Shown: piece by piece, positions 15,350-57,453 of the stretch
Layout: each line of letters starts with the position of its first letter
Position numbering within the stretch: the first letter of the stretch is position 1
The notes under the pieces: model-generated
The model's input: the letters and a program-made list of their open reading frames with translations, nothing else
The model's database searches: none
Told to the model about the DNA's origin: nothing
Translations under genes and position numbers: made by a program
From: Dicyema japonicum
Lineage: Eukaryota; Dicyemida; Rhombozoa; Dicyemidae
Direction: 5' to 3'
DNA: 64,000 bases
Assembly (NCBI GenBank): GCA_011109175.1
Contig: RDEW01000005.1
Span: forward strand, 324,043 to 388,042

Positions 15350-16882
15350 TTAGTATTCAAGGTCGTCGATGAAATTTTTTATCAATTCAAAGGCTGCCGC
15401 AGGTTGATCAGTTGGAACCAAATGTCCTGCATTTCTAACCACAATTTGCTTGAAATTTCCAGACGCTCGAACATATCCATTAACTCTCTTGGGATGTTTT
15501 AGAATACCAATTTGCTGAGGGGCATCGTTGAATACAGCTTTTCCATTCCATTCTAATTTTTCATATATTCTGAAGTCGATCCGGGGGGTACAATAGTATC
15601 CAGCTGGCCATTGAAAAGGAGAGTCTTGGATGTTGAAATAAGACAACCTTATATCCAGAATTTAGAAGATATGTAAAATTCTGAACTATTGATTTCATTA
15701 AATCAACGGCCATAACAGCATTCATTACCAACCATTTTTTGCTGAACTCTACGTTACCTGCGTTTACTTTTTGGGAATTTCGTCGAAGAAACTCTGGAAA
15801 ATAATAAACTTGCGGCTAAAACTGAGCACTCAATCAAACTGCATCATATCGATAGTTGTTAGGGCTAGAAAGACCAGTCATGTTGGTGTAGAAAGTCGGA
15901 TATACAAAATTGTCTGATTCGATAAGTTGATCAAAAATCTATATGTTAAGCCGAAATCACCCAAGCACTTTCTACATATTCTTCTCTCATAATGGATTCT
16001 TGAATGGCATCTCTATATTTATCGAATTTTTCGATTTGGTTGTCGAAAATAAGTCCCTTGTAGTAATAATTGATTCCGTAATCGAGCGACTACAATAAAT
16101 AATAATCTTGCATTGAAAGGATCAATCCAAGCACCACCAATGGCCATTCCTTTCAGATTCATTGGGTGTACGTTTTTTTTATTCCACTCATCGATCGCAT
16201 AAAGTGCAGCTGGAATGTATTTCCCTGCATAAGAAAGTCCACTAAAGTAAAGATGATTCGGTTTCAATTCAGGGAATAGAATATAAAATTGTCGCATGCA
16301 TCTAAAATAGCATTTACTATCTACTCTGATAAGAAACGACCAATCATTTCTTCAGTGGATAAGAAACATTCTTCTCCGAAAAACTGAATCCAACTCCTAC
16401 CTGACAGTAAAATTACTAAAACTGGATTATCAATGAAAATCAAATTGTATTCTCTCGACCACGTGATTTCTCTTTTTGTAACTAAAAATTTTAAATGAAT
16501 TGTACCTGTTAAATCTTCATTAACGTAGTATGGACCGATTTGCGCAAAAACTCCTGTCATTGAAGAAGATCCAGGTCCACCATTAAGCCATACTATAACT
16601 GGTGCAGAGGCATTTCCATTCTTTAATGATTATCTCAAAATATTACTTCTGCTTTAAAATACCAGAAAAACATATTTCTAACACAGTCATCACTCACTCT
16701 GAAGAATCCAGAATAACTCTCAACATCTCCGACAAGTGGTTCGACATAGCTTAACTGTCTTGCCAGCTCAAACTCCCCATTGTTCAAATTAGTCTGTGAG
16801 TATTAAAGGTTCGCTTTTGTCAGGTAATGCATTTTGCACATAATTGATTAAACAAAATGAAAGAAAACAGAAAGAATCCCAT
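15350..16882 (-). CDS. Serine carboxypeptidase (CPVL-like), spliced
   Basis: Peptidase family S10; such enzymes remove C-terminal residues in lysosomes or outside the cell. The start ATG at 16880-16882 opens a hydrophobic leader MGFFLFSFILFNQL. After splicing come VIVWLNGGPGSSSMTGVF (oxyanion hole), IDNPVGVGFSF, the nucleophile motif GLSYAGKYIPAALY, NGQLDTIV (catalytic Asp) and RNAGHLVPTDQP (catalytic His), ending at 15350. Introns at 16621-16646, 16482-16505, 16401-16422, 16302-16324, 16090-16111 (GC-AG), 15939-15960, 15816-15839 and 15625-15647 are 22-26 nt, and each restores the family sequence. Oddities: Leu replaces the usual Glu before the Ser; the frame breaks in the C6 run at 15583-15588 and twice between 16790 and 16840. 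It may be intact with sequencing errors, or a young pseudogene. Confidence 0.85.
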
Positions 16883-17440
16883 TTTAATTGCGAATTTTTA
16901 AAGAATTTATTATAATAACTGTATTAGGTTTAAAGTTCTAAAAATATTTTTTAAATCTAATTTAATAACTAATTTAAATTTCATTATTTTTTATCTCAAA
17001 TTTTTTGAAATTTATAATTTGTTAAAAATTTTTCTATTTATTTTTATTCGTCAATACACGAAAAAAAGACATTCCAGTTCTACCATGCTGAACATCCGCC
17101 TCGAAGCCTGGTAGACAAAGACGTTCTCCAGCTTCTTACATACCTATATCCGTGAAAATGCTGTCTCCCATGCACCATGGAAAAACTCGTTATGTGAAAG
17201 ATCCTTCCTGACCAGCTATGTTTCAGGCTCCAACATAGCTCCAAAGTGGATCTGCCCACCACTACTCATTTGGATTTTTAAGTCAGTTTATTACCGAGGG
17301 ATTTAGCACACTCGTCGTCATCTTCGGACTGTTATTTAAGAAGCCTTCACTCAGTGTCCAGAAAAATACTGACTAAGAAGTTATTCTACATTAACATTAA
17401 AATGAAATTATGGAATTATAATTTACTTAATGGATGCAGA
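16883..17440. other. No gene recognised
   Basis: Upstream of the carboxypeptidase: about 170 bp of AT-rich sequence that may hold its promoter, then 17080-17280 with more even composition. A 60-codon minus frame there (17080-17262) has no family resemblance. Confidence 0.35.
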
Positions 17441-18650
17441 AGACAAGTTTCCGTTCGCTCTTTGAAATCAGGATCTGGTATATGATCAAATACAAAAGGA
17501 TCAAAATGACCAAAAAATGCGACAACGAAATTCAGTAGCTCTTCTCGCTCTCCGGGAAGTGTGATGGCTAACTACTTCACGGTAGATGACAAGACGTCGT
17601 GCAACACTGAAGTGGCTAAACCTGCAGACGAACCCACGAAAGCCGATTTAACAGACAACCCGTCCTTACTGATTTTAGTCGAAGATCGATACGTCCTGTA
17701 CCTCTACGACCAGTCCGGATATATGAGAATGAGCTACAGAGGATCGAGATCCTTCCGGTTTAGATTCCACAGCAACTTCGACAAGATGGCCTTTATGGAA
17801 GCATGAATGACACTTGTCCCTTTGGACCGGAATGGCACCGGTGCAAAGCGTTAAACTCAAAACCGTTGGAGATTGTCATTAAGAACCTGCCCTTCTGGGT
17901 CGAGGAAAACGACCTTCTGGATTACCTACAGGAGATGGATCCTTCAACCACGAAGGTCACTAGAATGTTCAGAGGAGAACGGAAGATGCCAATGGCGAAA
18001 AAGATAATCAGCAACAAATCAGAGGCCCGTTGTGGCTTCTCCATTGTAAGAAACGCGATGGATGAAGAGAGGACCGCTGATCTGCTACAGCTGCCAGCAA
18101 GTCGGGCATTTTGCATACCAGTGTAAGGAAAAGAAGTGTTTCCCATATGCGGGAGAACATGATATCTCTGAATGTAAAGTGGACCTGGTACTCAAAACTA
18201 ATTGTGTTAACTGCGGATCTTCCAAACACGGCGCCATATACGGAGGATGCCCCTTGCTATTGGAAGCCAAACATAAACTTGATCAAGGCAGAAGGACAAC
18301 CAACATTGAAATCAACAAGGTGGAACCAACAGATCGAAAAAGAATAATCGGCCCTCGAATTATCAAATATGAACCAGTTTGAAAGGCACCCAAAGTGATA
18401 TGTCTGAGAAGATCTCAAAAGAACTAGAAGAGATAATCTCAAGGCTAAAAGAACTGTGCAATCTACTTGGTGTGGATTTACTAAAGATGGTGAACCTGGC
18501 GATGGAGAGACCAGGCCACCTAAAAGCAAATTGAGAAGAAGTGCTGGTGAATGCCCGATCCTTGAGGAAGAGGCAACATGACCTAGCACTACTTACTCTG
18601 AGTGTATAATCAGACTGCATTTCTAATAGTTCCAACGTTAGTATATAATG
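17440..18650 (+). mobile_element. LINE ORF1 (Gag-like, CCHC zinc knuckles), frameshifted
   Basis: Three overlapping plus frames give one Gag-like protein: 17561-17806, then 17803-18126 with LEIVIKNLPFWVEENDLLDY (an RRM-like Gag fold is likely), then 18062-18382 with CYSCQQVGHFAYQC and CVNCGSSKHGAIYGGC zinc knuckles. This is the ORF1 architecture of Jockey/I-type LINEs. Two frame changes and stops near 18380 show it is not functional. It may be the first half of the LINE whose remains continue at 20560. Confidence 0.7.
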
Positions 18651-18849
18651 GCTAGCGTAAAGTCTAGACGTATGAACTTTTTCTGACCAAGTAGAACGCT
18701 CATAACCGCGGCATGTCAATTTGACGCCATTGACAGAATCCACTGCTTTTTTTCTGATGGTTTCATTTTAATGACGCTTTTCCGTCACAACGTCGTCGAC
18801 TGTATAACAATCCTTTTTTGCAGGCCGCGCGTTTGACATCCCTGATCTA

Positions 18850-18962
18850 GGGGATCGGATTTCTACATGCACAGGAAATCTCTGTAAGCGCTGCTGACTA
18901 TTTGAGCGAACATCGCTCGTCATCCTGAGAGGGGATAGCCACCCAGTCAGGGCAGCTACTGT
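18850..18962 (+). repeat. Dispersed hairpin-bearing repeat, copy 2
   Basis: Same repeat as at 6442-6555 (opposite orientation). The stem GAGCGA/TCGCTC is kept, with a different 3-nt loop (ACA). CAGCCACGCAGTGAGGGC of copy 1 reads TAGCCACCCAGTCAGGGC here. It is followed about 50 bp later by a hAT terminus. Confidence 0.65.
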
Positions 18963-19011
18963 ATGATGATCAGTTGATGCTTCTCTTAATAAATAGAGTA
19001 TTATAGAACAG

Positions 19012-19480
19012 TGTTTCTCAACGATGTGCCATTTTAATCAATATGATTTACTTAAGTTTTTGTGTCTGCTATGTTGTGTGGATTTATGAAACGAAATGAT
19101 GGAACCATCTCGCTTATTAGAACACGTAAAACGAAAGCATTCTTAATCACTAGGAAAAAATATTGAAGTTTGTAAAAAACCTAAGGCCAAACAATGACTA
19201 CTTCCCTGTGTAGATATAACATATTCTGGAAAGGAATCTTTCAAATTACTAAAAAACTATTCTATTCAGTTGCGATTCAATGTGAATAAGAATAGACAAG
19301 ATGCCCCAAGACCCCGAGCAATCATAAGTATTTTTCTCGAAAAACAGCCCTCCGATAAAGAGTAGATAATGTTTACATTACTTAAACCTCATCTGATGCA
19401 AAAATGACACTCTATTTTAAAAAGTAAGACAGTAATTTTATGTAATCCAAAGTATTTCCAAGACATTGAAAGTACTCTTG
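19012..19480 (+). pseudogene. hAT element 5' end, BED-finger relic
   Basis: The terminus CAGTGTTTCTCAACGATG is followed by a frame with EMMEPSRLLEHVKRKHS, the end of a BED finger (MKPSKLLRHxxxKHP), and by poorly conserved sequence with stops. No catalytic residues can be placed. Confidence 0.45.
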
Positions 19481-19490
19481 ACTTCTTGTT

Positions 19491-19805
19491 TTGAAGAATT
19501 ATAATTTCCATCAGAGATTAATGTTTTTGGGACGTTTTCTTCCTTATTTCCTCTTTCAGGAAAGCATAGAGATTCTAACAAACTTATTGCCGAGTCTATT
19601 GAAAAAATTTCAAATATTGGTAAAAGTCATTTTTAGGACAAGGGTTCCATTCGTTGCTGCAGCTTTTCCAAAAAATGAGGATTTCGAAAATTATAGAGTT
19701 TTTCGGTTTATGATTACTGCGTATTTACGGTCCAATGGTGTGCCTATGCAAATGGAGCATATTTTTTGCTTAATTGGCATTGAACCTAAGGAGTTTGTAT
19801 ATTAA
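19491..19805 (+). other. Unassigned 104-codon open frame
   Basis: An open frame rich in Phe/Leu with no motif I recognise. It lies between a hAT 5' relic and an R2-like relic, and could be part of either or chance. Confidence 0.25.
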
Positions 19806-19889
19806 TCGTGCTAAACATGTGAGAGGACTTGTGTTGGAAAGAAACTCCAGCATTAGCGGGTCCTTAAAACTAAGAAAACACATATGACA

Positions 19890-20455
19890 CAATCGCAGGA
19901 TTCCTTGCTTTCAAGTACAAGATGAACCCAACCCAAATAAGCTTTATCAAAGACTATCAACAAAAATCCCTGTTGGATAGTATCAGGAGAAAGTCAATCC
20001 AATATAATTTATGATTGTTGCAAAGATGAGAATATTGATGTTGGATCCGCTGGGTGGTTGGTCAGTGGAAACAATTATCGGAGATCCGAGGCTTTGTTTT
20101 GTCTTCTTGAAGAGAGGAATCTGTTTTTACGGATAAATATTCAACATGTAATCACTGTAAGAAATCAAAAAAGTCGGTGGATCATATGGCTACATGTTGC
20201 AATAGGATGCTTAACAGCGACTACATTAGAAGGCATGAGATGCATAGTGGTTGGATGCATACATTCGCACTTGTGCAGAATGTACGACGTCAAAATGTCA
20301 GAGACCAAAGATGCATTCTGTCATTTTTGAAACAAACTGAAGTAGAAAAGTTGCATAAGTACGATTTATTGGCTGGAGAGCTCAGTCTACTGTATGGTAC
20401 TCCAGTCAAAGTCATACCTATTGTTTTCGTGTCGTTTCAAAGTGATTGAGATTGC
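19890..20455 (+). pseudogene. R2-like element C-terminal relic (divergent)
   Basis: Plus frames follow the R2-like protein in order: FLAFKYKMNPTQISFIKDYQ, NNYRRSEALFCLLEERNLF (compare SPRSEALYTYMQDRNIFW), then the zinc knuckle CNHCKKSKKSVDHMATCC (compare CPHCKSRSMSVDHLATRC), then VEKLHKYDLLAGELSLLYGT. The PD-(D/E)XK part between knuckle and last motif is mostly lost. Divergence is high, so this is an older lineage of the same class. Confidence 0.7.
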
Positions 20456-20559
20456 TTATAAATTTCACTTGGGAGCCTATCTTAATCGATGCACCAATTA
20501 GAACATACATTCAATCTGTTTTGCTAAAGAAGATGTGGCTATTAAAGTCCGAATCCCAG

Positions 20560-21690
20560 AATTTTAATAATATTGGTTAACGCAAATCTCCCGCCTTTGA
20601 GTTCTTGCTCCTCCAAGATCCATTGTGCCCATGACAAAAGGGGAAAGATGCTAATTGAGGACTTTCACAGTCTCTGCATACTCAACGATCCGGCTTTCCA
20701 TACAAGAACACCTACTCGACGTACCAATAAACCCTCATCCATTGACATCTCACTGTCATCTCTATCCCTGGCCTTTCTTTTTGACTGGTCAGTGAAATAT
20801 GTCACCAGGAGTGACCACAATCCAAAATTTTTGGAGGTCAAACGAGGTCACGGATAAAAGGACCCGACGATAATTAATTACAGCCATGCGAACTGGAGAG
20901 GATTCAAGGAGTACTCGATACTTTCATTTGACTCTTGAATTTCCCCACTCCTCCCTCCGTCGAACAATTAGTGAAATGATTCAACTCCACCATAAATGCT
21001 GCGAGAAAAAAGAACATTCAAATAACAGGCAACCTACGTTTCAACAAAAAGACGAAACGTTTGATCAGAGAACGAAATAATATAAAGAAGCTGAAATCGC
21101 CAACAGAAGAAAACATTAGAAAAATACAAGAACTGAACAGAGAGATCAACAAGAGCATTAGAAGATCCTCCCCAGAGACGAAAGGCGAATTCTAAATCCA
21201 ACCCGAAAGCCTGATAAAATATTATACGTCTATCTCCTACAGGGAGTTTTCAAAAGAACGCCAAGTATTCCTATAAAAGATTGAATTGAAACACTCCGAT
21301 GACGGTATCCTCTCTACTAGCCAGTATCTCCAGCCTCTTAAGGACAGAAGCATTCAATCAGTGACTCAGTCCTCCCAACAAATGCTTGACAAGCTGAACT
21401 ATGACTCTCGAAACGGAGGCTCGAGACAACATCAACAAAGTCCTCTGTTACGCAGTTTTCAAAGACAGCTCTGTGGCGAACCAAAAATCATTACAAAGAA
21501 CAAGACTATTCCTATTAACAAAACACTGAAGATTCTGGAGGTCACCTTTGGCCAGGGACTCTCTTTTATCCGACATGTTGCTTCTGCTCTGAATAAAATG
21601 AGAATCCTAAAAAATGCTCTCAAAAACACTTAAAGACCAAACTGGGCCCTTGCCACAATTTATGAACAATTTATCTGACCCACAATGGCG
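20560..21690 (+). mobile_element. Jockey-like LINE relic with internal deletion
   Basis: The endonuclease C-terminus is seen at 20573-20857: IEDFHSLCILNDPAFHTRTP, SSIDISLSSLSLAFLFDW, and SDHN, the catalytic SDH. RT C-terminal segments follow at 21286-21633 (TKNKTIPINKTLKILEVTFG) and LATIYEQFI near 21655. The fingers, palm and box C are deleted. Confidence 0.65.
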
Positions 21691-21734
21691 TATGAAGTCT
21701 TTCGTGGACAATGCAGATTTCAGGTTTCGACTCT

Positions 21735-21800
21735 TAAATCCGATAATCATGTTCTACTCTTTTATGCGGATGATTTTGTTTTGATTTAACTTTAAATTTT
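21735..21800 (+). mobile_element. RT box C fragment
   Basis: A short frame reads LLFYADDFVLI, the catalytic YxDD box of a reverse transcriptase, with little recognisable around it. It separates two longer LINE relics. Confidence 0.4.
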
Positions 21801-21959
21801 AGCGTGGCGTTATGTGGTTCACCGATTCACTAATTCTTTAGGTTTTGGTAACGCCCAGAGGGCACCTAATGTCCCTCCAAAGACAACCATTAAACATTTA
21901 CCTCCGAGAAAACTGTCTCCAAGGCGGCAGGCACTACTATCCTCATCTACCCGGAAAGA

Positions 21960-23115: not shown

Positions 23116-23119
23116 AATC

Positions 23120-23300
23120 CGGTGATCGTGGGGTAAAAAATAGTAACAATCCTTTAGTCCACATAATCTCGATAGGTTGGGGATATAGGAAGTGTTAAAT
23201 GACCTCTGGGGAGGGATATAGATTCTACAAACGTGGGAATTGGGTATTAGCAAAGGTAAATATTAGCAATTGGGTATTAGCATAGGAAAAACGTGGGAAT
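23120..23300 (-). mobile_element. LINE endonuclease scrap
   Basis: The minus frame gives IYIPPQRSFNTSYIPNLSRL, which corresponds to NVYIPPQGSCSTSYIFNL in the LINE at 58830-58880. Short direct repeats (AATTGGGTATTAGCA-like) occur at 23237-23285. Confidence 0.45.
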
Positions 23301-23457
23301 TGGTAGGTCACCCATCTGAAGGTCGTAGAATAGTAAGGAATGTCAAAAGGTTCTTTTCTATGCAGAACACTGAGCGCCACCACAACAAAGGTGAACCGCA
23401 TGAAGCCACGTTAGTTTTTTTTTCTTGCGCCTGCGAGGAACGAATTCTTGAGTCGTC

Positions 23458-23689: not shown

Positions 23690-25898
23690 AAGTTAATATT
23701 TAATAATCAACAACCTTCCTCGCTTGCCTGTTCGTCAGCCTCAGGCAGGTTCGATTATGGTTGCTGAAACAACTCCGAGAGCGCCTTGTCCAATTGAACC
23801 CTCTGCCCATATGGCATCTCCGGGCTCTGCCTCCTATACTCCAGTGTCAAGCTCTCTAGGGTCAGTGAACTGTAGATAGGCCTGGATAGCCCTTGTGGTA
23901 CTTTGCTGCAATTCCTGCCTAAGTCATTACTATCGGAGTAACGAGTACATTGCAACCAAGCATCTGCCCCATCTCGTTTGCAAGAAAGTTATACTTTTTT
24001 TTCCTCCACCTCCACAGTCTCCAAACGGTCTTGAGACGTGATGCCAACTTCTATGATAAGGACTTGGCCAGACTCCTTATCGTGTACCACAATGTCCGGT
24101 TTATTGTGCTTGACTAGAACCGAGGTACGGATAGCACTGTCTACCTTAATTTGGACCCTGGTGTTCTCTACTCCAGATTGCACCTTATGAGTCCGCAACT
24201 TTCTGCTGTGGCGAATACCATACTTATTGCATAGTAGAAGATGAAGACTCCTTACTACCTCGTTATGCCTCCACACATAGTCGTGGCAGAGCATGGATCC
24301 ACATCGAGTGGCTAAATGATCAACCGACATGCTCCTTGACTTACAGTGGGGACATATATTTGTTGATCGACCCCAAAAAATATTGCGGTCTTGCATATAC
24401 GTGTACAACGCCTCCGATCGAGGTGAGTTGTCACCGTATTTTAGCCATATTGTCGACGACTTAAGGTCGACATGTGGGTTGTCCAATGCTCTGAAGAGGA
24501 CCTTATGAAGGCTTTTTAAGTTGATCTTTTCCATCAAATTATTATATTGTAATTCGATCAACGCCTTCACATTTACTAGCCCACCATCATCAACACCATA
24601 CTTAGCAGACAAAAAAGGTCTGATAGTGCCTAGGTGGGTTGCCCGTGTTTTCTCGGTCGTTATTATGGCGTGCTTCCTAGCAGACACACTTGACCCAGCT
24701 ATCAGGGTGTCGTGCATTCGCATTAGGATACGCTCACTTAGTTGGACTACTCCACACAGTCCACGGCCGAATTTATCACGGGGTAAATATAGTCTCTCCT
24801 TATTGGCTGCCAGCACATGGACATGGTTCTCTCTGAGTACTCCACGGATCATAACATCCATCTCATCATACTCCTTGGGCTCAAACTCCACAACACCTAT
24901 GTAGTAGTTTAGCAGCGAGACAGCATACTCATTTAATGCTAGGAACAAATTCCTTGCATTTAGAGACGTCTTACATAATAACGCTGCTCTTTTACGGATG
25001 CCTTCAGTAATTTGTCGCTTTGTCTCAGGCATTATAAGGGACTTTGGAGATTCGGTAACACCCAGATACTTATATCCTTCGTGTTCCTCTAGGACTCTTA
25101 CTAACTCGCTACATACTTGCGTGTTAGTCGCAGACTTTGAATAATTCAAATCTAGTCCTATACTCTCAAAGAATTCCCTGGCACAGACCCCCATGGAGTA
25201 GAGCTCCTCGGCTGTTCGAGCATACATCTTCAGGTCATCGATAAAAAGAAGGTGATTTGTACTGAAACAAACCCCCTCACAATGAACTGGTATTTGCTCA
25301 AACCGGTCATTGAGGCGGCGACTCAATGGCTCCAAACAGAGAACAAAGAGTAGCGGAGACATGCTATTTCCCTGAAGGATCCCCCTTTTGAGTTTTACCT
25401 CGCCTATCCAATGCCTATTATAGTTCAGATGAATACTCCACCTATTCATCACAGCCACTACAAAGCTGATGAACCACACAGGCATACACAGACTGTGTAG
25501 GCACTCGACAAGGTAAGAATGATCAACTGAATCGTAAGCCTTCTTCACATCCACCCACATAGACAAAAGTGAGTTTCCGTGAGACACAGAAAGGCATTTG
25601 TTGATCAAAGCCTGCTCTTTTGCCCCCTACAATTTCTCACAGTACCCAACTGATTCTCGGAGAGAATCCCATTTGCTTCTACAAAGCTCCTGACCTCATT
25701 AGCCATCAATTTGGTCATCAGTTTATACAGGGTTGGCATGCAGGTTATCGGTCGATAATCTGCAGCAGATTGAGGGTTGTTCAGCTTTGGGATCAAATAA
25801 GTTGTCTCGTTGCAGGCCCAATCAGGAATCGTTTCCGGGTAAGTGATGCTTTTCTGTAATACACGACACAAACTCGTGCAATGAAGTGCATCTTTTGT
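23690..25898 (-). mobile_element. R2-like non-LTR retrotransposon, copy 2 (5' truncated)
   Basis: Nearly identical to 2036-3510 over their shared part and extending further 3'. It begins at about 25898 within the fingers region and runs through RT, zinc knuckle and restriction-like endonuclease, with a 3' UTR to about 23690. There is a frameshift near 25610. Downstream of the main ORF, one frame continues as YNFLANEMGQMLGCNVLVTP, a TAG at 23923-23925 follows VMT, and homologous residues resume after it, so the C-terminus is degraded. 5' truncation is the usual outcome of target-primed reverse transcription. Confidence 0.85.
23989..25608 (-). CDS. R2-like RT with zinc knuckle and PD-(D/E)XK endonuclease
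   Basis: A 539-codon open frame. RT motif A is VDVKKAYDSVDH, motif B is LQGNSMSPLLFVLCLEPLSR, and box C FIDDLKMYA (about 25220-25245) has both Asp. The C-terminal knuckle is CPHCKSRSMSVDHLATRC. The nuclease has KPDIVVHDKESGQVLIIEV, i.e. PD...E with the acidic residues in place, followed by a short frameshift. In this class the protein nicks the target DNA and primes cDNA synthesis from its own RNA. No rDNA target is nearby. All catalytic residues I can place are intact, but the N-terminal DNA-binding region is missing because of 5' truncation. Confidence 0.85.
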   Translation of the reverse strand: MINKCLSVSHGNSLLSMWVDVKKAYDSVDHSYLVECLHSLCMPVWFISFVVAVMNRWSIHLNYNRHWIGEVKLKRGILQGNSMSPLLFVLCLEPLSRRLNDRFEQIPVHCEGVCFSTNHLLFIDDLKMYARTAEELYSMGVCAREFFESIGLDLNYSKSATNTQVCSELVRVLEEHEGYKYLGVTESPKSLIMPETKRQITEGIRKRAALLCKTSLNARNLFLALNEYAVSLLNYYIGVVEFEPKEYDEMDVMIRGVLRENHVHVLAANKERLYLPRDKFGRGLCGVVQLSERILMRMHDTLIAGSSVSARKHAIITTEKTRATHLGTIRPFLSAKYGVDDGGLVNVKALIELQYNNLMEKINLKSLHKVLFRALDNPHVDLKSSTIWLKYGDNSPRSEALYTYMQDRNIFWGRSTNICPHCKSRSMSVDHLATRCGSMLCHDYVWRHNEVVRSLHLLLCNKYGIRHSRKLRTHKVQSGVENTRVQIKVDSAIRTSVLVKHNKPDIVVHDKESGQVLIIEVGITSQDRLETVEVEEKKV

Positions 25899-26781: not shown

Positions 26782-27424
26782 TTAACCAAACCTCCCATTT
26801 CGAATAATTTTGAACATATTTGGACGACTTAGATCAACCACTGTGGATCCGGCTCGCATTTCCTCGGTACAGTGCAATCTTCCTCCATCAACTATGAGGT
26901 CAAGTCGAGGCCACAAGATTTCAAAGTCCTCAAATGAGCAACTCAACTACCTCCTTGCATAAGGGACTCATATCACCACTTATATTAGCACTCGTCAGCA
27001 AAATAGGACTCCCTAGTTGTTTCACAATTTGAACCACCAACGGGTAATCAGGGATTCTGAAGCCTATGAGTAAACTTCCAACATTCAGATGAGAAAAATC
27101 AGTCACAGTTCTTTCAAAAAGAAGGGTCACTGGTCCCGGAAGCAGTTTGTTCAATAATTCAGAGGAAACCGTAACTTTTGCAAAACTAAAATTTATTTTT
27201 GAATGAAACTCTGATATTTGATCAACTGAACTGATGGCTATCGACAAAGGCTTAGTGTAGTCTCTTCCTTTGATATCATATATTTTATCGAATGCCCTAG
27301 AACTAGTGAGGGATCCTGCTATTCCATAAATGGTGTCAGTAGGGATGGCTATAATTCCTTCGTTGATGAGAGCACAGACTGACTTATTTATGACTGAGGA
27401 CGCGGAAGCCAAAAGTATATTCAT
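26782..27424 (-). CDS. YRDC: YrdC/Sua5-type threonylcarbamoyl-AMP synthase
   Basis: This enzyme makes threonylcarbamoyl-AMP for the t6A37 modification of ANN-decoding tRNAs. Exon 1 (27424-26951) carries IPTDTIYGIAG, KGRDYTKPLSIAI (KxRxxxKPL motif), LPGPVTLLF and SPILLTSANISG (SANxSG). A 22-nt intron at 26929-26950 joins it to an exon encoding DLIVDGGRLH, STVVDLSRPNMFKIIRNG and a stop at 26782-26784; without the splice the frame stops at once. The product of about 205 residues fits the single-domain YRDC form, without the Sua5 extension. A short N-terminus without a long targeting peptide is visible. The gene appears intact. Confidence 0.9.
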
Positions 27425-35790: not shown

Positions 35791-35843
35791 TTGGTTTGAA
35801 GCTGTAGAATATTATTATTAAAATATTAAAAAAAAAAAAAAAA

Positions 35844-35916
35844 TACCCCGACTGGGAATTGAACCCAGGACCTTTCGCGTGTAAAGCGAACGTGATAACC
35901 ACTTCACCACCAAGGC
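35844..35916 (-). tRNA. tRNA-Val (anticodon UAC)
   Basis: The D arm is GTGAAGTGGTTATCAC. The anticodon arm is TTCGC-TTTACAC-GCGAA with anticodon TAC, and the T arm is CTGGG-TTCAATT-CCCAG. A run of 15 or more T follows the discriminator A directly, a good Pol III terminator. The acceptor stem GCCTTGG/TCGGGGT pairs throughout but four of seven pairs are G-U. The internal promoter boxes are intact. It is probably functional, although the wobble-rich acceptor stem is unusual. Confidence 0.85.
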
Positions 35917-35924
35917 ATTTGAAG

Positions 35925-37250: not shown

Positions 37251-40020
37251 ATGAAATCAATGAGAAATCATATACCGACAAGATCGGTTTTACTAATGAT
37301 TTTGTTTATTTTGCTTCACTTTTGTAATCCACATGCTATTTCCCTGGATGTAGGACAAAAATATATATTTGTGTATGATTATTCCGTGCTTTGTGAAAGT
37401 AGTGGTTGCCACAATATTTCTCAAAAACAAATTCAAGTTAAACTCTTCAATATTTCCAGGAATGACTTGAACAGTGCAATAAATATTTCTAAAAATGTGA
37501 ACAGTCATTTAGCGGCAAATCAAAATTTGTTCATTCCTGTCTTCTTTTTTGGGCAACTAAAGGATTTCAGATTTGTCATTGCTACACTGAAGCTATCCCA
37601 CAAAAACATTATGATTTCTCACATAATTGGAGATAGGACGATCTCATCAATAAATGTAGAATTCCCCAAAGACTAATTTTAGGACAGAACTCTAATGACC
37701 AATTATCCCCCATCAAGATATTCCCTGGGAGTCCAATTATTTATGAACAACCACCAGATATTTCAAATATTTATTATTGTGAGTATCGAACTCTCTGCTG
37801 ATGGATTCGTTTCATCAATTTTAGCCTATTGCAAACAAAAACGGATATATTCCCAATTAATAGTCATCGACAACCTTAAAAACATGATCAAAGAAAATAA
37901 AATAAATTTTGGAATCATCATTGATGTGATTAATCCTTTGGTGGTGTTTTATGTCAATCGCGTTGACTTTCCAGTAATCCTTTGTTATCTTCGGAATAAA
38001 TATCACAGAAATAACATAATTTATATTAACGGACTCGGAAATTTCACTCACACAGAAGTCTACTGTGCACAGAACGTGATTGTAGTCGAGAATTTACAGG
38101 CCAATACATTTTCAGACACAATTTTCACGGATATCGTGAATTCCGTTAACGGAACTGCTAATAGAAACAGGTAGACGCGGATAAATAAGATATAGTATTG
38201 GGAAGGCAGTTTCGGAGTACAAAAATAAAAACCAGTTAGTTTTGTTCATTCAGAGATTTGTTTTCTATAAACTTGAGTCCGTGTTGTATGGTTTTGTCAA
38301 TATGAGCACAAATCCCCCAAAATTGAATCAAATGAAGAGTCTAAACCAAATCAATAGATTTTCGTTACCTTTCCGCGTTGTTGTCCAAATCGACGAACCA
38401 TTTGTGATGATAACTGACCTCAGATATGTTAAATTTTGTTATGCAGGAGTGGTTTGTCTCAAAATTCTACAAACTGACCCAATGTATATTAGCAAGGCTT
38501 TCTCAGATTATTCCACAGATCAGAAATTGGTGGGAACTGTTTATGAAGTTTACTGCTGTCATGGACTTATAATTCAGATTCTAATGGAACTTACAATAGG
38601 AAACCATCTAACGTTGATATTCTGATGATTTTAGAAATTTGGAGGTTTATATTCTCGCGGATCAAAATTACGGAGTTTTTAAAGACGGAAAATGGAACGG
38701 ATTGGTAGGCGAATTGGTTGAATACCGAGCAGATCTGGCTGCGGCTACCTTAACGATTTCTAGTGAGAGATTGGAGGTAAAACAATCATTTTCAGTTAAA
38801 AGTACATCAATTTTGTCTCCATTGGAATAAAAACTATTAATTCTCTCATCTCTGTTAAAAAGAACTTGGCTCCTCAAATTGGAATAATATTTAGTCCTCT
38901 AAAGGTGGACGTTTGGATACTCGTAGTGTCCTTCATATTTATGCTAATATTCATTACAGCAACGTACGAATGGCTGAGTCCATATGGAAGGAATAGTTCA
39001 GGCAAAAAAGAACAGGTTTATGCTATTGGTAGTTCAATGTTTGTAATTTAAAGGATCTGCCTTCACTACTGTTATTTCAGTGTTGACAATGAATTCCCTG
39101 CAAGCTAAAAGTCCAAAGTCGGTCTCTGCAAGGATGTCTGCAATCATTTTGGGCCTTTTCTGCGTTTATTCTGGTGGCCTACTACACGGCATTTCTCGCA
39201 GCTATTATGTCATCGGAAGAGTCGACAGATGTTGATATTGTAAAAATACTGGTAAAGATCTATGATTACACAGAACAACCCAAATTATAAAATCGGAATA
39301 CAAGCGGGGAGTCTTCAACTCTCGACAATCATAATGAACAACTACAGCTCTAATAATCTCATATTTTATCACAACACCAAGGAGGCATTTTCATTTCTAA
39401 GGTTTTGAAGATCTAATATTAGAAATGGAGAAATTGATTATATTTTTGATGAAGAAATCTATACTCGAATACCCAGTATAAACTCCTTCTGTGATCTTGT
39501 TTTAAATGGCCAGTTTGGAAAATCAACATTTGGATTTGGAATTCCAAAACATTCAGTTTATCAAGTTAACTTTACTCAACATATTCAAGGAAAGCATGCA
39601 GGAAGTGATCACGAGGTTAAAGGAATCGAACAGTCTTTCTACACTTTTTGGTAAATATTTTGTGGACGAACACTGTGTTACGGACATTGAAACGAAAGTG
39701 GACAAGATAACCCCGAGTCACCACATTGGAAGCTATATTTTACTGGCTGTAGCTATTTTGGTGTCTTCGGTGATTTGCCTCGCCGAGATTTTCATGCACA
39801 AATACCTCATTGTGGTGTTTAGAAGTTTACCCCCAAATAGTATTTGGAAGAGCTCCAGAATATACTTTACTAGTCAGGTGTATATTTTAACTTAAATAAG
39901 AAAATTTATCAGCTTGTGGTGTCTAGTTTTGATTCTTCTGTGTACTATAAAAATCAGGCGGGTTACTTCCGAATTATCGGAAAAGTTCTTGAGTTTAAAA
40001 GAAGAATAAGCCAAGTCTAA
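37251..40020 (+). CDS. Ionotropic glutamate receptor subunit (iGluR), spliced
   Basis: A ligand-gated cation channel subunit of the plasma membrane. A signal peptide (SVLLMILFILLHF) precedes an extracellular amino-terminal domain. S1 is RVVVQIDEPFVMITD to GKWNGLVGELVEYRADLAAA with TLTISSER, the Arg that binds the ligand carboxylate. M1 is VWILVVSFIFMLIFITATYE. M3 contains AYYTAFLAA, for the usual SYTANLAA. S2 is GIQAGSLQLS to FDLVLNGQFGKSTFGFGIP-like sequence, and M4 is GSYILLAVAILVSSVICLAE. Nine introns (37656-37682, 38171-38195, 38613-38634, 38777-38802, 39043-39080, 39252-39273, 39402-39422, 39565-39589, 39878-39900) join the exons; eight are 21-27 nt and the fifth is 38 nt. The frame is otherwise broken only at TTTT 39147-39150 before M3, probably a one-base indel. 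The stop is at 40018-40020. Confidence 0.85.
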
Positions 40021-47640: not shown

Positions 47641-47689
47641 ACCACCATGACGCACGCTAACAATTAAAGCTCTTTGGAGACAAAAGAGA

Positions 47690-49230: not shown

Positions 49231-49294
49231 TATTTTTTGCATTAAAAATATAATAAAATTGAAAATTTAATTATTTTGCTGTGGTATTATGGAG

Positions 49295-50385: not shown

Positions 50386-50389
50386 TTAT

Positions 50390-51640
50390 TAAACACTATT
50401 TTTACTCGGGTACCTGCCCTCGTGGTTCCTATCCTCAAATGAGAGTTTTATGCCAAACACTGTCAAAAGTTTAGAAATATCTAGGCATAACAAGTTCACC
50501 TGCCTTCAACTATCAATGACCTTCTGAATTTCTAAATTTAGATGGTAAAAACAGTCTGCACATGACCTTCCAGGACGAAGGTCCAATTGGGAAGGGGGCA
50601 AAAAATTAGTTTCTTCAATATGCTGACATAGACGCTTGAATATAATCTCTCGATGATCTTCCAAGTAGAACACACCAGACTGATTGACTATAGCCCATCC
50701 TCACTATAGACCTCTTCATAAGAGTGGGATAAAATCAATCTTGAGACTCATTAAACAATCATTAGCGAACAAAAAGCTTCCGGTCTTCCTTGAACATCTT
50801 CATGCCAATCGAGTCAAATCCCGGTGCGTTGGACTTGCATTTTTAATAGCCATCTTGATCTCCCTCATGATGATATCCTCCTAAACAGTCATGAGTCCGC
50901 CCAAAAAATAATTAATAAGTTCAAAGGAATCCTTTTTTCGATCGTCAGGAATCAAGCTATGGGCTCGATTACCTGGATATTTTCCAGTTGATTCTTAAAT
51001 ACTTATGAATATTCTCTAATGAGTAAGTGACCCCATCTGGATTATTCAGAGAATCTCGCTTGTTTCTGTCCTGGGACAAGTAAGCTTCTTGTAAATTTTC
51101 CAAAAGGATGTTTTTGACGTCCACTTTAATTGTTCGTTTCTCCATCTCTGTGCCACTAACATCTTCCATTTCTTTTCTGTCACCTTCGTTTTTATCTTAC
51201 AACCGCATATCTTTAGATTGATATATTTGAAATTCTGGTAGACAACCTGTTCTAGTCGTTCGGTTCTAAGCATATAAATTTTACTCATTCTTCTTTTTTA
51301 TGTGAATTTTGTTTTGTCTCCCAAGTAGATCTGATGAATTTTCTATTAGATGTCCCAAGAACGCTTGCTTCTAAAATTAGGTTAGTCTTTCCTATATAAA
51401 TCACTTCTATCCTCCGTATATCGTTCTGAGTTTTTTCATTGCTGCTTCTAATTATATTGATAATGGTAGATGGGAGAGTAATTCTCTTAGATAAGTAGTC
51501 GTATTCAAAATTTTCTTGAGTAGGTCTTTCATACTCTCACAAAGAATTCTTCATTGGAGACTAAAATTCTCATCATTCTTATACGACTTATCCAGAAATT
51601 GTTCCAGTACCTCCATTATGGCCATTAATCATGTCAAAAG
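50390..51640 (-). mobile_element. CR1/Jockey-like LINE RT relic
   Basis: Minus frames read CQHIEETNFLPPSQLDLRPG, RSCADCFYHLNLEIQKVIDS and NLLCLDISKLLTVFG (motif A, damaged). They are homologous to HIEERRFLLAKQCCFRPGKS of the nested element at 29163-30485. The N-terminal side (51000-51640) carries only weak Lys-rich frames. Confidence 0.6.
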
Positions 51641-51945
51641 ATCTTGGTAATTTTATTCCCAGAATGTTAGCAACACACCTTGATTTGTGACTCAAGACTA
51701 CTTTAGCTGTAGATTTTTAAGGAAAACGTACCATTAACTAGCATTTTATTTTATCATATTGTCAAGCCCATACTTCAACAATAATTGGGTAATGTACGAT
51801 GGATGATCACCCTACTGATGGTCCAGGACAGTGACCGCAAATAGTAAAAAAATTTAACAATAAAAAAAATTTATTAAATAAAATATACAACCATGATTCT
51901 TTTCACAATATTTATTTTGGAGGCAACGAGAGTATTCGAGAACTC
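51641..51945. other. No gene recognised
   Basis: AT-rich spacer without recognisable features. Confidence 0.35.
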
Positions 51946-51949
51946 TAAA

Positions 51950-52210
51950 AGAAGAAAATAAAATAACCCCTCCACTAGATTCCATGTGCAGCCAATCGTC
52001 CTCGAGATGAGTGGAATCTTTGGGGCAAGACTGTCTTTTTTCTGGTCAATCACATCGAAAGTGACAAATGAGCGTCGGGAAATCGAATGGCTGTTCCAAT
52101 GGATCTCTGACAGTTGTCAGGGGACATCCAATCCATTCTTTCGGCTGGATTTATTTGATTGTTTGTTACGTAAGAAATTGTTTTTGCGAAATAAATTAAT
52201 TAACAATAAA
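51950..52210 (+). mobile_element. PHD-RT family C-terminus
   Basis: STRFHVQPIVLEMSGIFGAR, LSFFWSI and WLFQWISDSCQG are the last conserved part of the PHD-RT protein. The nucleotide sequence is collinear with 41810-42050. It ends in AT-rich UTR. Confidence 0.6.
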
Positions 52211-52295
52211 AAAATTAATTTAAATTTATTTTGTTAAAATATTCAAAAAATAAGTAATGTTGAACAACACTTCAAAAAATCTGTACAAAATGATG

Positions 52296-53398
52296 TTAAA
52301 GTGGAATCAGTTTCACCAGAAAAGCATTTGTTTTACCAAGGGAAAGATGATAACAACGCACGGGACTAAATAAAGTTGAAGAAATTATAGCATCTTTCCA
52401 GTCAATATTACACAAAATGACAGCCCTCCCACTCTCGCGTAAAACGTCATGAGCCATCTGCAAAAATCTTTCTAGAAATTCACTGGGAGTTAATTTGTCC
52501 GGGATTTCAAAATTTAAACCGAATGGGAGATCACATAAAATAACGTCAACAGACTTTGCCACCAACGGGAATCTAAGAACATCCCAAGCAACAAAATCAG
52601 GAGACATTTGGTATCCTAAGGCGGTGGATGCTTCAGTAAGAACCGCTTTATTTGAATCTCCACCAATCAGGAAAACTGAATATGGAAGGGTCGTAGAAGA
52701 TTCAAAAAGGATAGATCCAAGTCCACACATTGGATCAATGCAGATATCTCCCTTACTAATATCAGCCAGTATGGCCATAGCAGAACAAACAGTAGAGCGG
52801 AGCCCCTGTTTTCTCGGACGTTCAGCAAATGAAGGACTGAAATTGTGAATCCCTATAAGCAAGTGATGGTCGTTATATTGGACGAATACTTCGATTTGAG
52901 GGTTTCTCAATTCCACCTTCCAGCCAAGATCCACCAAAAACCGAGATATAATTCGACTGGCAGTCTAACACCCTAATAATTAGCAATAACCCTTAAATTT
53001 ATATAACTTCTGAACTGGGATTGGCATTTAAATGAAATTCTAAAGCTTGTGGCGTCTGTGGAAAATAAATTTGCATATTTCCGCCACGTCTCAGGTAATA
53101 CACGTTTTACTTTGTTCGTGAGTTGTCGTTTCCCTTGAAATTAATATAAACATAACAATTGCAAAATGACAGATTTGTTTGAGTGTCGTATAAAATTGCT
53201 CCAAAAAGTCTCTCGAATACTTTAATTTTTTTGTACATAATGTACGGGGATAAGGCAGACGAGAAAAAAACTTTTCCCTTTATGAAGTCTAACTAAATTT
53301 TTATTTAATATCGAAACATCATAAGCGCCTAATTTATTTGATATCTCTTCTACAGAAATTTCCTCAAGACCTGCACTAACGGTAATAAAGTAGCGCAT
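52296..53398 (-). CDS. THUMPD3-like tRNA (guanine-N2)-methyltransferase, spliced
   Basis: A THUMP-domain plus Rossmann methyltransferase of the COG0116/THUMPD3-TRMT11 group, which methylates a guanosine in tRNA. The start ATG at 53398 gives RYFITVSAGLEEISVEEI. The catalytic part in exon 52296-52937 has QGLRSTVCSAMAIL, DPMCGLGSILFESS (SAM-binding motif I), IGGDSNK and VDVILCDLPFGL (motif IV, DLPFG). Introns: 53090-53110 (21 nt) and probably 52965-53007 (43 nt). The frame is continuous from exon to exon except at the A7 run 53226-53232 (minus), where a one-base deletion would restore VQKIKVFERLFGAI. About 350 residues, shorter than human THUMPD3. Confidence 0.8.
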
Positions 53399-53639
53399 TT
53401 AATTTTAAATAATAATGATAAATCAAAAATTATAAAATTAAATAAAATCGGGTTTATAAAAAAATAAATATAAATTGGTCCGACTCTTGTTGATTCTGTG
53501 GCTCTTGAACACTATGTGTGGAAAACGCGGAATTCATGGACTAGACTTCTCCCATGAACTTTTAATACCACGTGGCTTTCCAGTACTTAAAGAGATGTTA
53601 ACTTTATGAGGACCTCTCAAGATACAAAATATCTCTCGG

Positions 53640-54480
53640 ATGCCTTCAATAGACAAATTTCACCAACCGGATAGAAGCACAACAAGAAGAGTTCAGACTA
53701 ATCTTCCTGTCAGATCCAGACACTATGGACTGGGATTTGCTGTAAGGAATGGCTTAGTCCCGATAATTTACCATTATTTTATAATAAAAAACAGAATTGT
53801 GATACTAAAAATAAAATTGGACAGTTTTAACTCCACCAAGATTTACCTAACCATCATAAACACATATGCTCTTCCACAACGGACGGTAAAGGACCTGAGG
53901 AGGTCGAAGACCTATATATAATCAGTCGGCTGTCTACGCTGAACTTGCACATTCATCATTAATAATGATGTGGGAGACCTAAACGCGAAAGTGGGTGCTC
54001 GGGTTACCACCGAAGAAACATTAATTGGAAGACACGGCAGAGGAAGAAGCCTGTCGGACCCTACTAGCTAACTTACGCCAGGTAAACAATCTATTCATCC
54101 GGCAGACACAAGACAACTTGGTCATATTTCAATCATTTTTGGTCATATTTGTGGTTTCCTTACTCATGACTGTTACCTTACCATAGATTTCTTGGACATA
54201 TACTTCGTCTGGACTTGGGACCCTTGTGAACAATCATGGAGGACTACTTTGTTTTGGTCGATCGAGGAGAACTTTCATGTAGCGCCAAGTGCCAGGGTTG
54301 AACGAAAAGGTGACCAGTACTACCGCTATTCTACATGGCCAAATTCTACCAATATTGATCTTTGCAGGCAGTGTTAAATGAATTTATTACAAAAACTATA
54401 AGAAAAAACAAGAACTGATACCTTCAACTTTGATCGATATTTCTACATTAAACTCACTCAAGTAAGTGATCAGTGGCAAA
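53640..54480 (+). mobile_element. RTE-like LINE relic, endonuclease joined to tail
   Basis: HYGLGFAVRNGLVPIIYHYF, KIYLTIINTYALPQR and VGDLNAKVGARVTTEE, IGRHGRG give the endonuclease. After a deletion near 54100 the frame RFLGHILRLDL continues with TIMEDYFVLV, matching the tail before ARTTLPVVL in 42190-45500. It is the same family with the RT domain lost. Confidence 0.65.
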
Positions 54481-56380
54481 CAAGGTAACGAACACGCTGG
54501 CCGTTTATACGAATCATTGATTCTAGAGGTACTGGTGACGGGCGTTTCTTTTGTGATCAGCTGTTTCGTCATTCAATACACTCTTTATTGGATAACTTTG
54601 ATCTTCTCGACAGTTTGTTCAGGATTTTGATTGACTCAATGAGGCCATAACTCGATAACCTTTTGTATATTGATTCTATAAGAGGTTTTCTGATCTTTTA
54701 TGGAGAGAAGTTGTTCAGTAGAAAGTCTTCTCTCATTTTGGTAATACATTATCGACGTGCCACAAGAAGCACATGTGCGTATAGAAGGTTACGCATATAA
54801 TTTTTGTGTTTACCTTCGATTGGCTGTTTTTTGCCCAGTCTCTTGTCCGACGTGAAAAGTGAGTTGATGGAGTTTTCTCTCACTTAGTTGATTGTCTCTA
54901 AACCAAATTTGTCTTTAGTCTTTGTTGCATTCTTGTGGTGGCTGCATGAATGTCTTGGTCGACTGAAGCCAGAACGATATCATTGGAGAAACAACGAGGA
55001 TATCATTTTCAGTTCCCGGTTTAGAAAGGTCAGCCGAGAATCAGTTAACTGTAATGAGGGTAGCATTGATTTCCTGGTCGACATTATTTGGGAGAAACTG
55101 AGTTGATTTTAATTTGTCAATGCAGATACATCCCTTAGACCGCTATGTTTAATAATCTGAGTTTGAAATTTCTATTGATTCCCGCTTGAAAAAATCACAA
55201 AGTGAGATTCTTTCTTTGGACTGAGTCGAATATCACGTGGATATCGCTAAAAAAGAACACATTTTTCAAGTTTCTGAGAGAACAGATGGAATAAGTTAGG
55301 GAGGCAATATGAATGATGTCAACCATTTTCCTAAAGACAATGATGAATTAACATATTGTGAAGGATTTATTTGATTTTTAAAAGGATTAGCATCCCATGA
55401 GCATTGGAAGTCGAACAAAAAAGCGAGACAGGCTTATATTAAGGCTATATTTTCGGTTTTCTTATTTTCAGAATTTGATGGATGCGTTAAGTTTCTATAA
55501 TTTTTGTTAATGGTTGTAGATTTTTGTCAAGGTTAATATTTCCTGTTTACCATAATTTTTAGAGGTATTATTATTAGGGAAATATGACCCAACACTTACC
55601 CGTGTCGTTTTCAATTTGACTCAAAATGAGGATTTCCGTTTTCTTAAGCTTTTTGAGGGCGAATATACAGTAATATTTTTTCAAGTTGTACGGAGCGGTT
55701 AATACAGGTTAATACACCTGGGGTTAAAACTACCAAAATAGAGATTTCCCAGGCATCTTTCAGTAAATGTACTCAAGTGTACTCAGTTGGGAAATTTTTA
55801 TTTGTAATACCACGATTTATCCCCCAAACGGAAATGACACTCTTGATCGTTAATAGTATAAGGTTATAATCACTTCCAGTGTCGTAAATGATTGATCACA
55901 GGAGGAGGAATATAGTGGCACGTCTTGTGAGGTTAGTTGATCTGTCAAATATTCTTGTGTTTTTGAGAGAAAATTGATGATCGTCAGTGAAATGATTGAT
56001 AAAAATGAGGGTATTTTGTAATTATGTCCCCGTGCATATAATTTCATCAAAGTCAAATAGATTACTGTTCACGATGCATATTTTGTTCGTTTGTGGTTCC
56101 AATGTATATTTTTATACTCAACGAATTTGTCATCAACTTGATGTATTCTTTCTGATTAGAGGAACCTATTTAACGTTTCTCTAATTAGAGGTTCCTTGTT
56201 GTTGTGTTAGACAAAGAGAATTGTATCACAGGTAGCGAATAGTCTCCCCGTGGAACAGGGCAAATGGTTTTTTGAAGTTCTTTAAGTGAACTATAACCGC
56301 ATCCGGAACTGACAATACTTGTCAACCAAGGATGCCACGTTAAAATAATGAGATCTCAGTCATGCAATATTTGATTTATG
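54481..56380. other. Long stretch without recognised gene
   Basis: Almost 1.9 kb. Frames such as 54888-55106 (LRPVFVAFLWWLHECLG-like) show no family. No tRNA, repeat array or transposase motif is seen. The base composition is close to that of its neighbours. Confidence 0.35.
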
Positions 56381-56384
56381 ATCA

Positions 56385-56560
56385 CTAAAACTATTTTTTG
56401 ACTTTATGAAAAATTTATTTACAATTTTTTTAAATATGAAAAAAACTAATCAAAAACTTTATTAAAATATAAAATAATTAAAAATGTTTTCAGGTTAAAA
56501 CTTGGGTCTTTTATAATAACAGTCAGAGTTTTTTCAATGACCTTCCTGATTTGAATGCGG
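56385..56560 (-). pseudogene. hAT transposase C-terminal scrap
   Basis: The nucleotide sequence is similar to 8095-8240 (AAAACTAATCAAAAACTTTATTAAAATA). Minus frame: FNLKTFLIILYFNKVFD, the end of the hAT dimerisation region. Confidence 0.45.
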
Positions 56561-56659
56561 CGTAACAGTCGATGACACGTTAGTATTTTATTCAAATCAA
56601 AGATCCTAATAAAAATATGCAGATATTGCTTTTAAAATTTCTAAATAAAAAATTGACTG

Positions 56660-56970
56660 GCAGTTGTAACGTCAACAATAGGGATATTCAAAAATGAATA
56701 ACTTTAGCTACCGAGCCTGGATAAGACGTTAAAGCAAACAGTCGAGTCACTACTGAATTTACGTTTTGACGAGCTGAATTTGACAAAATCCAAACTTGTT
56801 TCTAGCTTCGGAGGAGCTGGCATAAGATCAGCTTACAGATCACCCTTCCGGCATACATATCGTCGCTTTCGAGCCAAAATCATCTCGTCCGTTTTATATC
56901 CAACCTCCCCCTAAATCCCTCATTTTGTCCTTCCACATATATAGAGGGACGGTGATCTGATAGATAATGT
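56660..56970 (+). mobile_element. PHD-RT relic, GGLG region
   Basis: SFGGAGIRSAY and, in the next frame, QITLPAYISSLSSQNHLV: the family's GGLGxRS motif followed by LPAYLSSL. It adjoins the 3' end of the ubiquitin-like/S27a gene on the opposite strand. Confidence 0.55.
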
Positions 56971-57008
56971 TCCCTTTTTGTATCCCAGTCCCTGACATTA
57001 AGTGATGA

Positions 57009-57453
57009 TCATATTATCAATATGTAATAGTGAGCCATCATTGAAACTGGTCCACAGTCAGTGTTCGGGCACTTTTGTCTCAGTAAGGTGATTTCTCCAT
57101 CATTGCCAACCTTGTAAAATTTGAGGGCTGCCAATGGGACCTTTTTGCGCACGTGCTTTATTTTCTTGGGGATTGTGTGTTATTTGGACTTTTTTCTTCT
57201 TTCCACCCAAAAGTGGCACAAATTGCTGCAAAGTCGAGAATTCCTTGATCCCACATCGTCCAATTGGAGACTCGTAGTCTAATGTCAGGCCGTTGTAGCT
57301 CAAGCACGTGGTATCACAAGGAACCCCTGATAATTAGAATAAAAAACTTAACCAATTTTTATGGAGATTTGCTTGAGTAATCTAAATTGCAATATTAATT
57401 CTCACGTCGCAGCAGAGAGATTTTCCAGTAGGAGTTTTGACGAATATTTGCAT
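57009..57453 (-). pseudogene. Ubiquitin-like domain fused to ribosomal protein eS31 (RPS27A-like)
   Basis: The start ATG at 57453 gives MQIFVKTPTGKSLCCD. Micro-introns at 57382-57405 (24 nt) and 57327-57347 (21 nt) lead to LSYNGLTLDYESPIGRCGIK, EFSTLQQFVPLLGG, a ubiquitin-like fold of about 69 residues ending in GG. The eS31 part follows in another frame: KHVRKKVPLAALKFYKVG, NDGEITLLRQKCPNTDCGPV. Normally the GG is cut to free ubiquitin and the ribosomal protein. Here the Ubl is far from ubiquitin, with GRCGI like FUBI. A frameshift and an in-frame TAA lie at 57183-57200, and the second zinc-ligand pair is missing before the stop at 57009. It is flanked on both sides by LINE sequence. Decayed gene or error-containing assembly. 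Confidence 0.7.

Follow-up and report, generated by a model that had tools for sequence, protein, structure and literature searches.

Are the short, evenly sized stretches that break up reading frames in a 64,000-nucleotide (nt) piece of DNA spliceosomal introns, and to what kind of organism do they belong? We examined this question in a window (the whole analysed stretch, G000:C137:324043-388042) taken from a genome of 64.67 Mb in 191 contigs, where a first-pass annotation had described GT-AG stretches of mostly 21-27 nt in five unrelated genes. We hold it highly probable that these are spliceosomal introns of the U2 type, reduced to some 23-24 nt, and that the genome is a dicyemid's. Dicyemids are minute, worm-like animals that parasitise octopus kidneys. 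The evidence shown for this is that AT-rich introns interrupt homologous proteins at fixed positions, both in 15 copies of a carboxypeptidase gene and throughout Prp8. The listed window genes were rebuilt, and their introns were tested against homologues besides the reading frame. For this we used a spliced aligner that compares a profile with DNA and permits introns, frame breaks and gaps; for the window carboxypeptidase the place and strand of the gene were supplied, the intron coordinates were not.

Eight micro-introns in the window carboxypeptidase gene

The gene that carries most of the window evidence, and its introns, are as follows.

15351..16822, minus strand: serine carboxypeptidase gene (Pfam S10, CPVL-like) with eight micro-introns and three frame breaks; its upper limit is where the profile alignment begins, not a settled gene start
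16621..16646, minus strand: micro-intron, 26 nt, GT-AG, phase 0; spliced alignment and first-pass annotation agree
16482..16505, minus strand: micro-intron, 24 nt, GT-AG, phase 1; both agree
16401..16422, minus strand: micro-intron, 22 nt, GT-AG, phase 0; both agree
16302..16324, minus strand: micro-intron, 23 nt, GT-AG, phase 2; both agree
16090..16111, minus strand: micro-intron, 22 nt, GC-AG, phase 0; spliced alignment; GC-AG at this position in loci C137b and C62 too
15939..15960, minus strand: micro-intron, 22 nt, GT-AG, phase 0; both agree
15816..15839, minus strand: micro-intron, 24 nt, GT-AG, phase 0; both agree
15625..15647, minus strand: micro-intron, 23 nt, GT-AG, phase 0; both agree

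Guided by a profile of 114 homologues of 430-500 amino acids (from 120 listed; 1389 matched), the aligner returned all seven carboxypeptidase introns proposed earlier with identical coordinates. The same alignment revealed the eighth, the GC-AG intron at 16090-16111; neither this intron nor the frame breaks found in several genes had been mentioned in the first-pass annotation. Before splicing, the gene matches Pfam S10 in three pieces of 61.1, 50.8 and 42.1 bits; once joined, it scores 279.6 bits over profile positions 8-419. Among the matches listed, the closest homologue shows 40% identity across 98% of the query, and the named homologues include CPVL and venom serine carboxypeptidases.

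Shared intron positions in carboxypeptidase copies across the genome

The genome holds about 17 S10 carboxypeptidase loci by our own grouping of 43 exon matches. Fifteen were counted: C159b (score 371) and C185 (score 320) were excluded as fragmentary, and C170c, which is counted, is truncated at the end of the fetched stretch. Across these 15 loci and eight shared positions, an intron is present in 114 of 120 cells, one cell holding two, to give 115 introns (111 GT-AG, 4 GC-AG). Their median length is 24 nt, with 100 at 21-27 nt and 108 at 20-30 nt; the remaining seven measure 16 (twice), 32, 33, 34, 35 and 152 nt. Because 105 of the 115 sequences are distinct, the positions have been retained while the sequences drifted. 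Introns of a length divisible by three are not depleted, either here (31 of 115) or in Prp8 (11 of 35). Three of the loci lie on one strand within about 10 kb (G000 C170:484810-494557), as a tandem cluster.

We then asked how often GT-AG ends would appear by chance. Gaps were placed without regard to splice signals, GT-AG was sought at most 6 nt away, and random places in the same genes served as the control (300 draws). At the eight shared carboxypeptidase positions, GT-AG was found at 73 of 112 gaps against 5.0 expected (maximum 12 in 300 draws); at other places in these loci it was found at 2 of 43, against 1.6 expected. For Prp8 the figure was 34 of 36, against 1.6 expected (maximum 7 in 300 draws).

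Micro-introns in Prp8 and U2AF2

Prp8, which belongs to another gene family and lies outside the window, was aligned to a profile built from 17 animals. It contains 35 introns, all of 20-26 nt (20 nt once, 22 nt ten times, 23 nt nine times, 24 nt eleven times, 25 nt three times and 26 nt once; mean 23.2, standard deviation 1.2), and the joined frame is free of stops. The aligner reported two frame breaks in this gene: the first, at profile column 235, probably reflects an additional intron, and the second, beside a run of five T, looks like a real break. In U2AF2, also outside the window, gaps of 22 and 23 nt become GT-AG once slid by at most 3 nt. The description of the genes as split by micro-introns is therefore upheld beyond the window, in the other genes tested (the carboxypeptidase copies, Prp8 and U2AF2). 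Ab initio gene finding supplies no intron count, since its training was swamped by transposon frames and coding contrast was low.

Intron anatomy and a proposed mode of recognition

Ends of GT-AG, with GC-AG rare, at sites where removal restores conserved protein, fit introns of the U2 type. Mean length is 23.2 nt in Prp8 and 24.4 nt in the carboxypeptidases (introns of 18-40 nt). A+T makes up 95.1% of the Prp8 intron interiors and 67.2% of the exons, and 1 of the 35 introns has G at +5; the carboxypeptidase interiors are 77.2% A+T, with G at +5 in 19%. Outside the GT, the mean number of matches to the CAG/GTAAGT consensus is 3.1 of 7 for the Prp8 introns and 2.6 of 7 for those of the carboxypeptidases. 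Branch-site matches are in slight excess over shuffled sequence in Prp8 (7 of 200 shuffles reach the value) and show no excess in the carboxypeptidases (113 of 200). We agree with the earlier observation that there is no long polypyrimidine tract: from the first to the last third of the intron, T climbs mildly, from 53% to 58% in Prp8 and from 39% to 50% in the carboxypeptidases, and C is scarce.

We propose that the ordinary major spliceosome would remove these introns through intron definition, each intron having hardly anything beyond a 5' splice site and, some 22-25 nt further along, an AG. Because the sites are weak, with G nearly absent from +5, a faint branch-site signal and no pyrimidine tract, the short uniform length and the A+T content probably carry much of the recognition. 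With 35 Prp8 introns at 20-26 nt, very little room is left between the 5' splice site, the branch site and the AG, which bears on the question of the minimal spliceosomal substrate.

Micro-introns and candidate introns in four other genes of the window

It had been claimed that removing the stretches restores conserved sequence in five genes. This holds for three, the carboxypeptidase, YrdC and the glutamate receptor, and does not extend to the methyltransferase and S27a genes. The stretches in these four other genes are listed below, those of the glutamate receptor last.

26929..26950, minus strand: micro-intron, 22 nt, YrdC/Sua5 gene; the joined protein spans the whole Pfam domain
53090..53110, minus strand: GT-AG stretch, 21 nt, UPF0020 methyltransferase gene; frame only, upstream of the conserved domain
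57382..57405, minus strand: GT-AG stretch, 24 nt, ubiquitin-like/S27a gene; frame
57327..57347, minus strand: GT-AG stretch, 21 nt, ubiquitin-like/S27a gene; frame
37656..37682, plus strand: micro-intron, 27 nt, glutamate receptor; sequence and frame
38171..38195, plus strand: micro-intron, 25 nt, glutamate receptor; frame, and the gene finder picked the same
38613..38634, plus strand: micro-intron, 22 nt, glutamate receptor; frame; both P0121-guided runs took a 97-nt stretch
38777..38802, plus strand: micro-intron, 26 nt, glutamate receptor; four of four homologue-guided runs
39016..39053, plus strand: 38-nt intron of the first-pass annotation, or 22 nt at 39032-39053, glutamate receptor; rival lengths by run
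39252..39273, plus strand: micro-intron, 22 nt, glutamate receptor; frame; the sole resolving run gives the same 3' end and a 5' end at 39240
39402..39422, plus strand: micro-intron, 21 nt, glutamate receptor; an ungapped NMDA (N-methyl-D-aspartate) receptor match spans the join; none of four homologue-guided runs, which placed longer stretches
39565..39589, plus strand: micro-intron, 25 nt, glutamate receptor; one of four homologue-guided runs
39878..39900, plus strand: micro-intron, 23 nt, glutamate receptor; sequence and frame

With the single YrdC intron removed, the Pfam match improves from 111.7 to 130.2 bits, and its extent grows from positions 3-134 to 3-178 of 178. The methyltransferase stretch is indeed GT-AG, yet it lies outside the conserved domain, and joining brings no gain in score (63.2 bits for the open frame against 61.1 joined, the joined form including another inferred intron of 43 nt). 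Both S27a stretches are likewise GT-AG, and both precede the parts that match Pfam; they restore no domain score. The introns of these two genes, based on frame, are plausible.

The glutamate receptor gene matches NMDA receptors, and its Lig_chan match grows on joining, from 20.9 bits (a single exon piece) to 48.7 bits, then covering profile positions 2-144 of 146. From 37656 to 39900 we find eight GT-AG stretches with lengths of 21-27 nt, which agrees in number with the first-pass annotation. The homologues are distant (28% and 27% identity) and four homologue-guided runs disagree with one another except at 38777-38802, so most of these introns rest on the frame. The region 39016-39053 was resolved as 22 nt in one run, as 25 nt (39029-39053) in another and as 80 nt in two; the 38-nt version aligns to NMDA receptors, and the intron may instead be the 22-nt one at 39032-39053. 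A further candidate at 39111-39132 (22 nt, GT-AG), which would bridge a frame break in this gene, was discarded, as it reads as conserved coding sequence.

Spliceosome components and the question of minor introns

We looked in the genome for components of the major spliceosome, and U1, U2, U2AF2, SF1 and Prp8 were all encountered. U2 small nuclear RNA (snRNA) gave 25 matches, 22 of them above the cut-off, and the usual GUAGUA, which pairs with the branch site, is present in all four copies read. The U1 5' end is the usual ACUUACCUGG in two of three copies read and ACUUACUUGG, with one change, in the third; in these U1 snRNAs (L040-L042; G000 C23, C62, C126) the 5' end is mostly kept and the body has diverged. 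Exons matching U2AF2 and SF1 are also present.

The genome further contains one U12 snRNA (85.4 bits; L044:1501-1629, G000 C68) and one U6atac snRNA (37.0 bits against a cut-off of 33; L045:1501-1598, G000 C34). From their presence the minor spliceosome is probably retained, and minor introns may survive, which poses the question of what form minor introns take where major ones measure 23 nt. U12-type introns have the consensus TATCCTT at the 5' site and TCCTTAAC at the branch site. None with TATCCTT and the branch site was found in the fetched part of the genome that was examined. We tentatively suggest, as a possibility with the odds somewhat against it, that a working minor spliceosome is kept and that its introns are either miniaturised below anything described or are rare long exceptions among the micro-introns. 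A minor-intron survey of more than 3000 genomes left out introns shorter than 30 bp in every species, and its lowest average, that of Blastocystis, is slightly below 42 bp; minor introns of very small size could thus have escaped notice. The word dicyemid is missing from the main text of that survey. Within the dicyemid literature consulted no statement on U12 was found, a scope that leaves out supplements and subscription papers and does not show absence from print. If a minor spliceosome does stand beside major introns of about 23 nt, dicyemids would be a test case for the minimal intron of each spliceosome.

Affinity of the organism

The earlier proposal of a dicyemid source, made from intron size, is supported by the micro-introns and by evidence independent of them: the Prp8 tree, GC (guanine plus cytosine) content, genome size and carboxypeptidase copy number. 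In the tree (29 rows, 28 proteins chosen among 120 listed; 3140 matched), the organism falls among bilaterians beside flatworms with a Shimodaira-Hasegawa-like approximate likelihood ratio test (SH-aLRT) value of 91, below the program's mark of 95, on a long branch; this is one gene, with no dicyemid among the rows. Nor does any entry named as a dicyemid occur among the protein matches listed for Prp8, the carboxypeptidase and the glutamate receptor. No clade with SH-aLRT of at least 95 contains the organism. GC content is 37.0% in the window and 21 fetched stretches, mostly chosen for carboxypeptidase genes. With a size of 64.7 Mb, the genome compares with 67.5 Mb and 36.7% GC reported for Dicyema japonicum, for which Illumina plus PacBio data are described and vitellogenic carboxypeptidase is named as one of ten multi-copy clusters. 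The genome shows the traits sought for Dicyemida, namely short uniform introns, small AT-rich genome and several vitellogenic carboxypeptidase copies, and is very probably that of a dicyemid.

Alternative explanations and contrary evidence

Could the stretches be insertions and sequencing errors in decayed genes, with GT-AG ends arising by chance? Frame breaks are certainly present: three in the window carboxypeptidase (minus strand, near 16791, 16370 and 15560), out of 24 over the 15 loci, one in the glutamate receptor (plus strand, near 39143), the one in Prp8 by the five-T run, and others, noted just by reading the sequence, in the methyltransferase and S27a genes. The discarded candidate at 39111-39132 also illustrates that chance GT-AG pairs occur. 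The breaks in the window that introns do not explain sit in otherwise intact-looking genes, and may be decayed copies or assembly errors. Homopolymer errors were considered as a possible cause of breaks: runs of at least five identical letters were close to 15 of 75 breaks with an earlier, faulty version of the aligner, against about 10% of control places, and to 7 of 30 with the corrected aligner, with no control set. Against decay stand the eight positions common to 15 loci with mostly differing intron sequence, and the excess of GT-AG at signal-blind gaps, about 15 times expectation in the carboxypeptidases and about 21 times in Prp8. Moreover, four full-length loci (C115a, C170d, C115b, C159a) are free of breaks and stops once introns are removed, as is the truncated C170c. 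We therefore regard decay and error as extremely improbable as an explanation of the stretches.

The reading as U2-type micro-introns does face contrary evidence. The frame breaks mean that some frame faults here are not introns, and intron calls from reading frame alone can mislead annotation. The evidence for the introns comes from genomic DNA and homology; alignment penalties differed between runs; and the earlier aligner, in which phase-0 intron extension was faulty, recovered four of the seven window carboxypeptidase introns. Relatedness among the 15 carboxypeptidase copies means that the introns in them cannot count as independent draws, and CPVL affinity was tested for the window copy only. 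Their loci contain nine more introns, off the eight positions and uncounted, of 21, 23, 26, 32, 38, 39, 50, 58 and 181 nt. As for the machinery, none of 11 U1 snRNA matches exceeds the gathering score of 69.5 (best 69.0 bits), the U2AF2 pieces fall under the family cut-off, as expected of single exons, and SPF45 was not recognised in the genome with a human SPF45 UHM (U2AF homology motif) query.

Other eukaryotes with micro-introns might also be considered as the source. In Paramecium bursaria introns are reported to have a median of 24 nt and to be AT-rich and GT-AG (PMC12862383), as here, and orthonectids are likewise reduced parasites with short introns. Paramecium is, however, a ciliate, and U11/U12 small nuclear ribonucleoprotein is reported absent in the ciliates considered (PMC12862383), whereas U12 and U6atac occur here. 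The profile of 17 animals fits Prp8 with a stop-free joined frame (the tree itself is without ciliates), and the glutamate receptor, like CPVL, is of animal type. The introns lie far below the orthonectid median, reported as about 57 nt, and Prp8 falls among bilaterians apart from Intoshia linei, the sole orthonectid in the tree, whose own position is weakly held. We consider another such micro-intron eukaryote very unlikely as the source. A different alternative leaves the introns in place and changes their recognition, with a dedicated factor such as SPF45 (RBM17) standing in for U2AF, a role suggested for it at some short introns of humans. In human cells SPF45 takes the place of U2AF where short introns have truncated pyrimidine tracts (PMC8363638), and the introns here, which lack such a tract, resemble them; the human model intron is, however, 56 nt long, and in this genome U2AF2 is present. 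The SPF45 query matched only two places: a PUF60-like gene (41.4 bits, 51% identity; PUF60-like by our reading of its two RNA recognition motifs and UHM) and U2AF2 (29.0 bits), although an intron-split gene or an assembly gap could hide SPF45. We consider this route unlikely and favour the ordinary major spliceosome.

Relation to known introns

That dicyemids have micro-introns with weak splice sites is already known. Ogino 2010 is reportedly among the sources cited on them. They appear in print in Aruga 2007 (PMC2222250), Irimia and Roy 2008 (PMC2483917), Zverkov 2019 (PMC6543705) and Lu 2019 (PMC6736024), and published dicyemid introns are described as having the weakest known 5' boundary and no branch-point signature. 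The present genome shares with the published dicyemids very short uniform spliceosomal introns, weak sites, similar genome size and GC content, and several carboxypeptidase copies. Our means of 23.2 nt (Prp8) and 24.4 nt (carboxypeptidases) compare with printed dicyemid figures of 24.93 (table row for D. acuticephalum), 26.2 +/- 1.9, a median of 27 and a mean of 38.2, and the Prp8 spread of 20-26 nt is narrow. Introns of 18-21 nt in the Bigelowiella nucleomorph (cited in PMC2222250) likewise combine extreme shortening with a reduced genome; they are shorter still, and belong to a vestigial nucleus that is not animal. Since the trait and the weak sites are in print, the value of our results is in confirmation and sharpening, and the details added are the tight Prp8 intron set, the GC-AG micro-introns and the U12 and U6atac snRNAs.

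Other features of the window

The sole RNA gene in the window (ARAGORN and Rfam, gathering scores) is a tRNA-Val (TAC) at 35843-35917 on the minus strand. Two minus-strand frames, at 2022-3248 and at 23989-25608, agree at 1146 of 1170 aligned letters (98%), and the first has a match of 68.6 bits to the reverse transcriptase RVT_1 of Pfam; the pair suggests a recently active retrotransposon.

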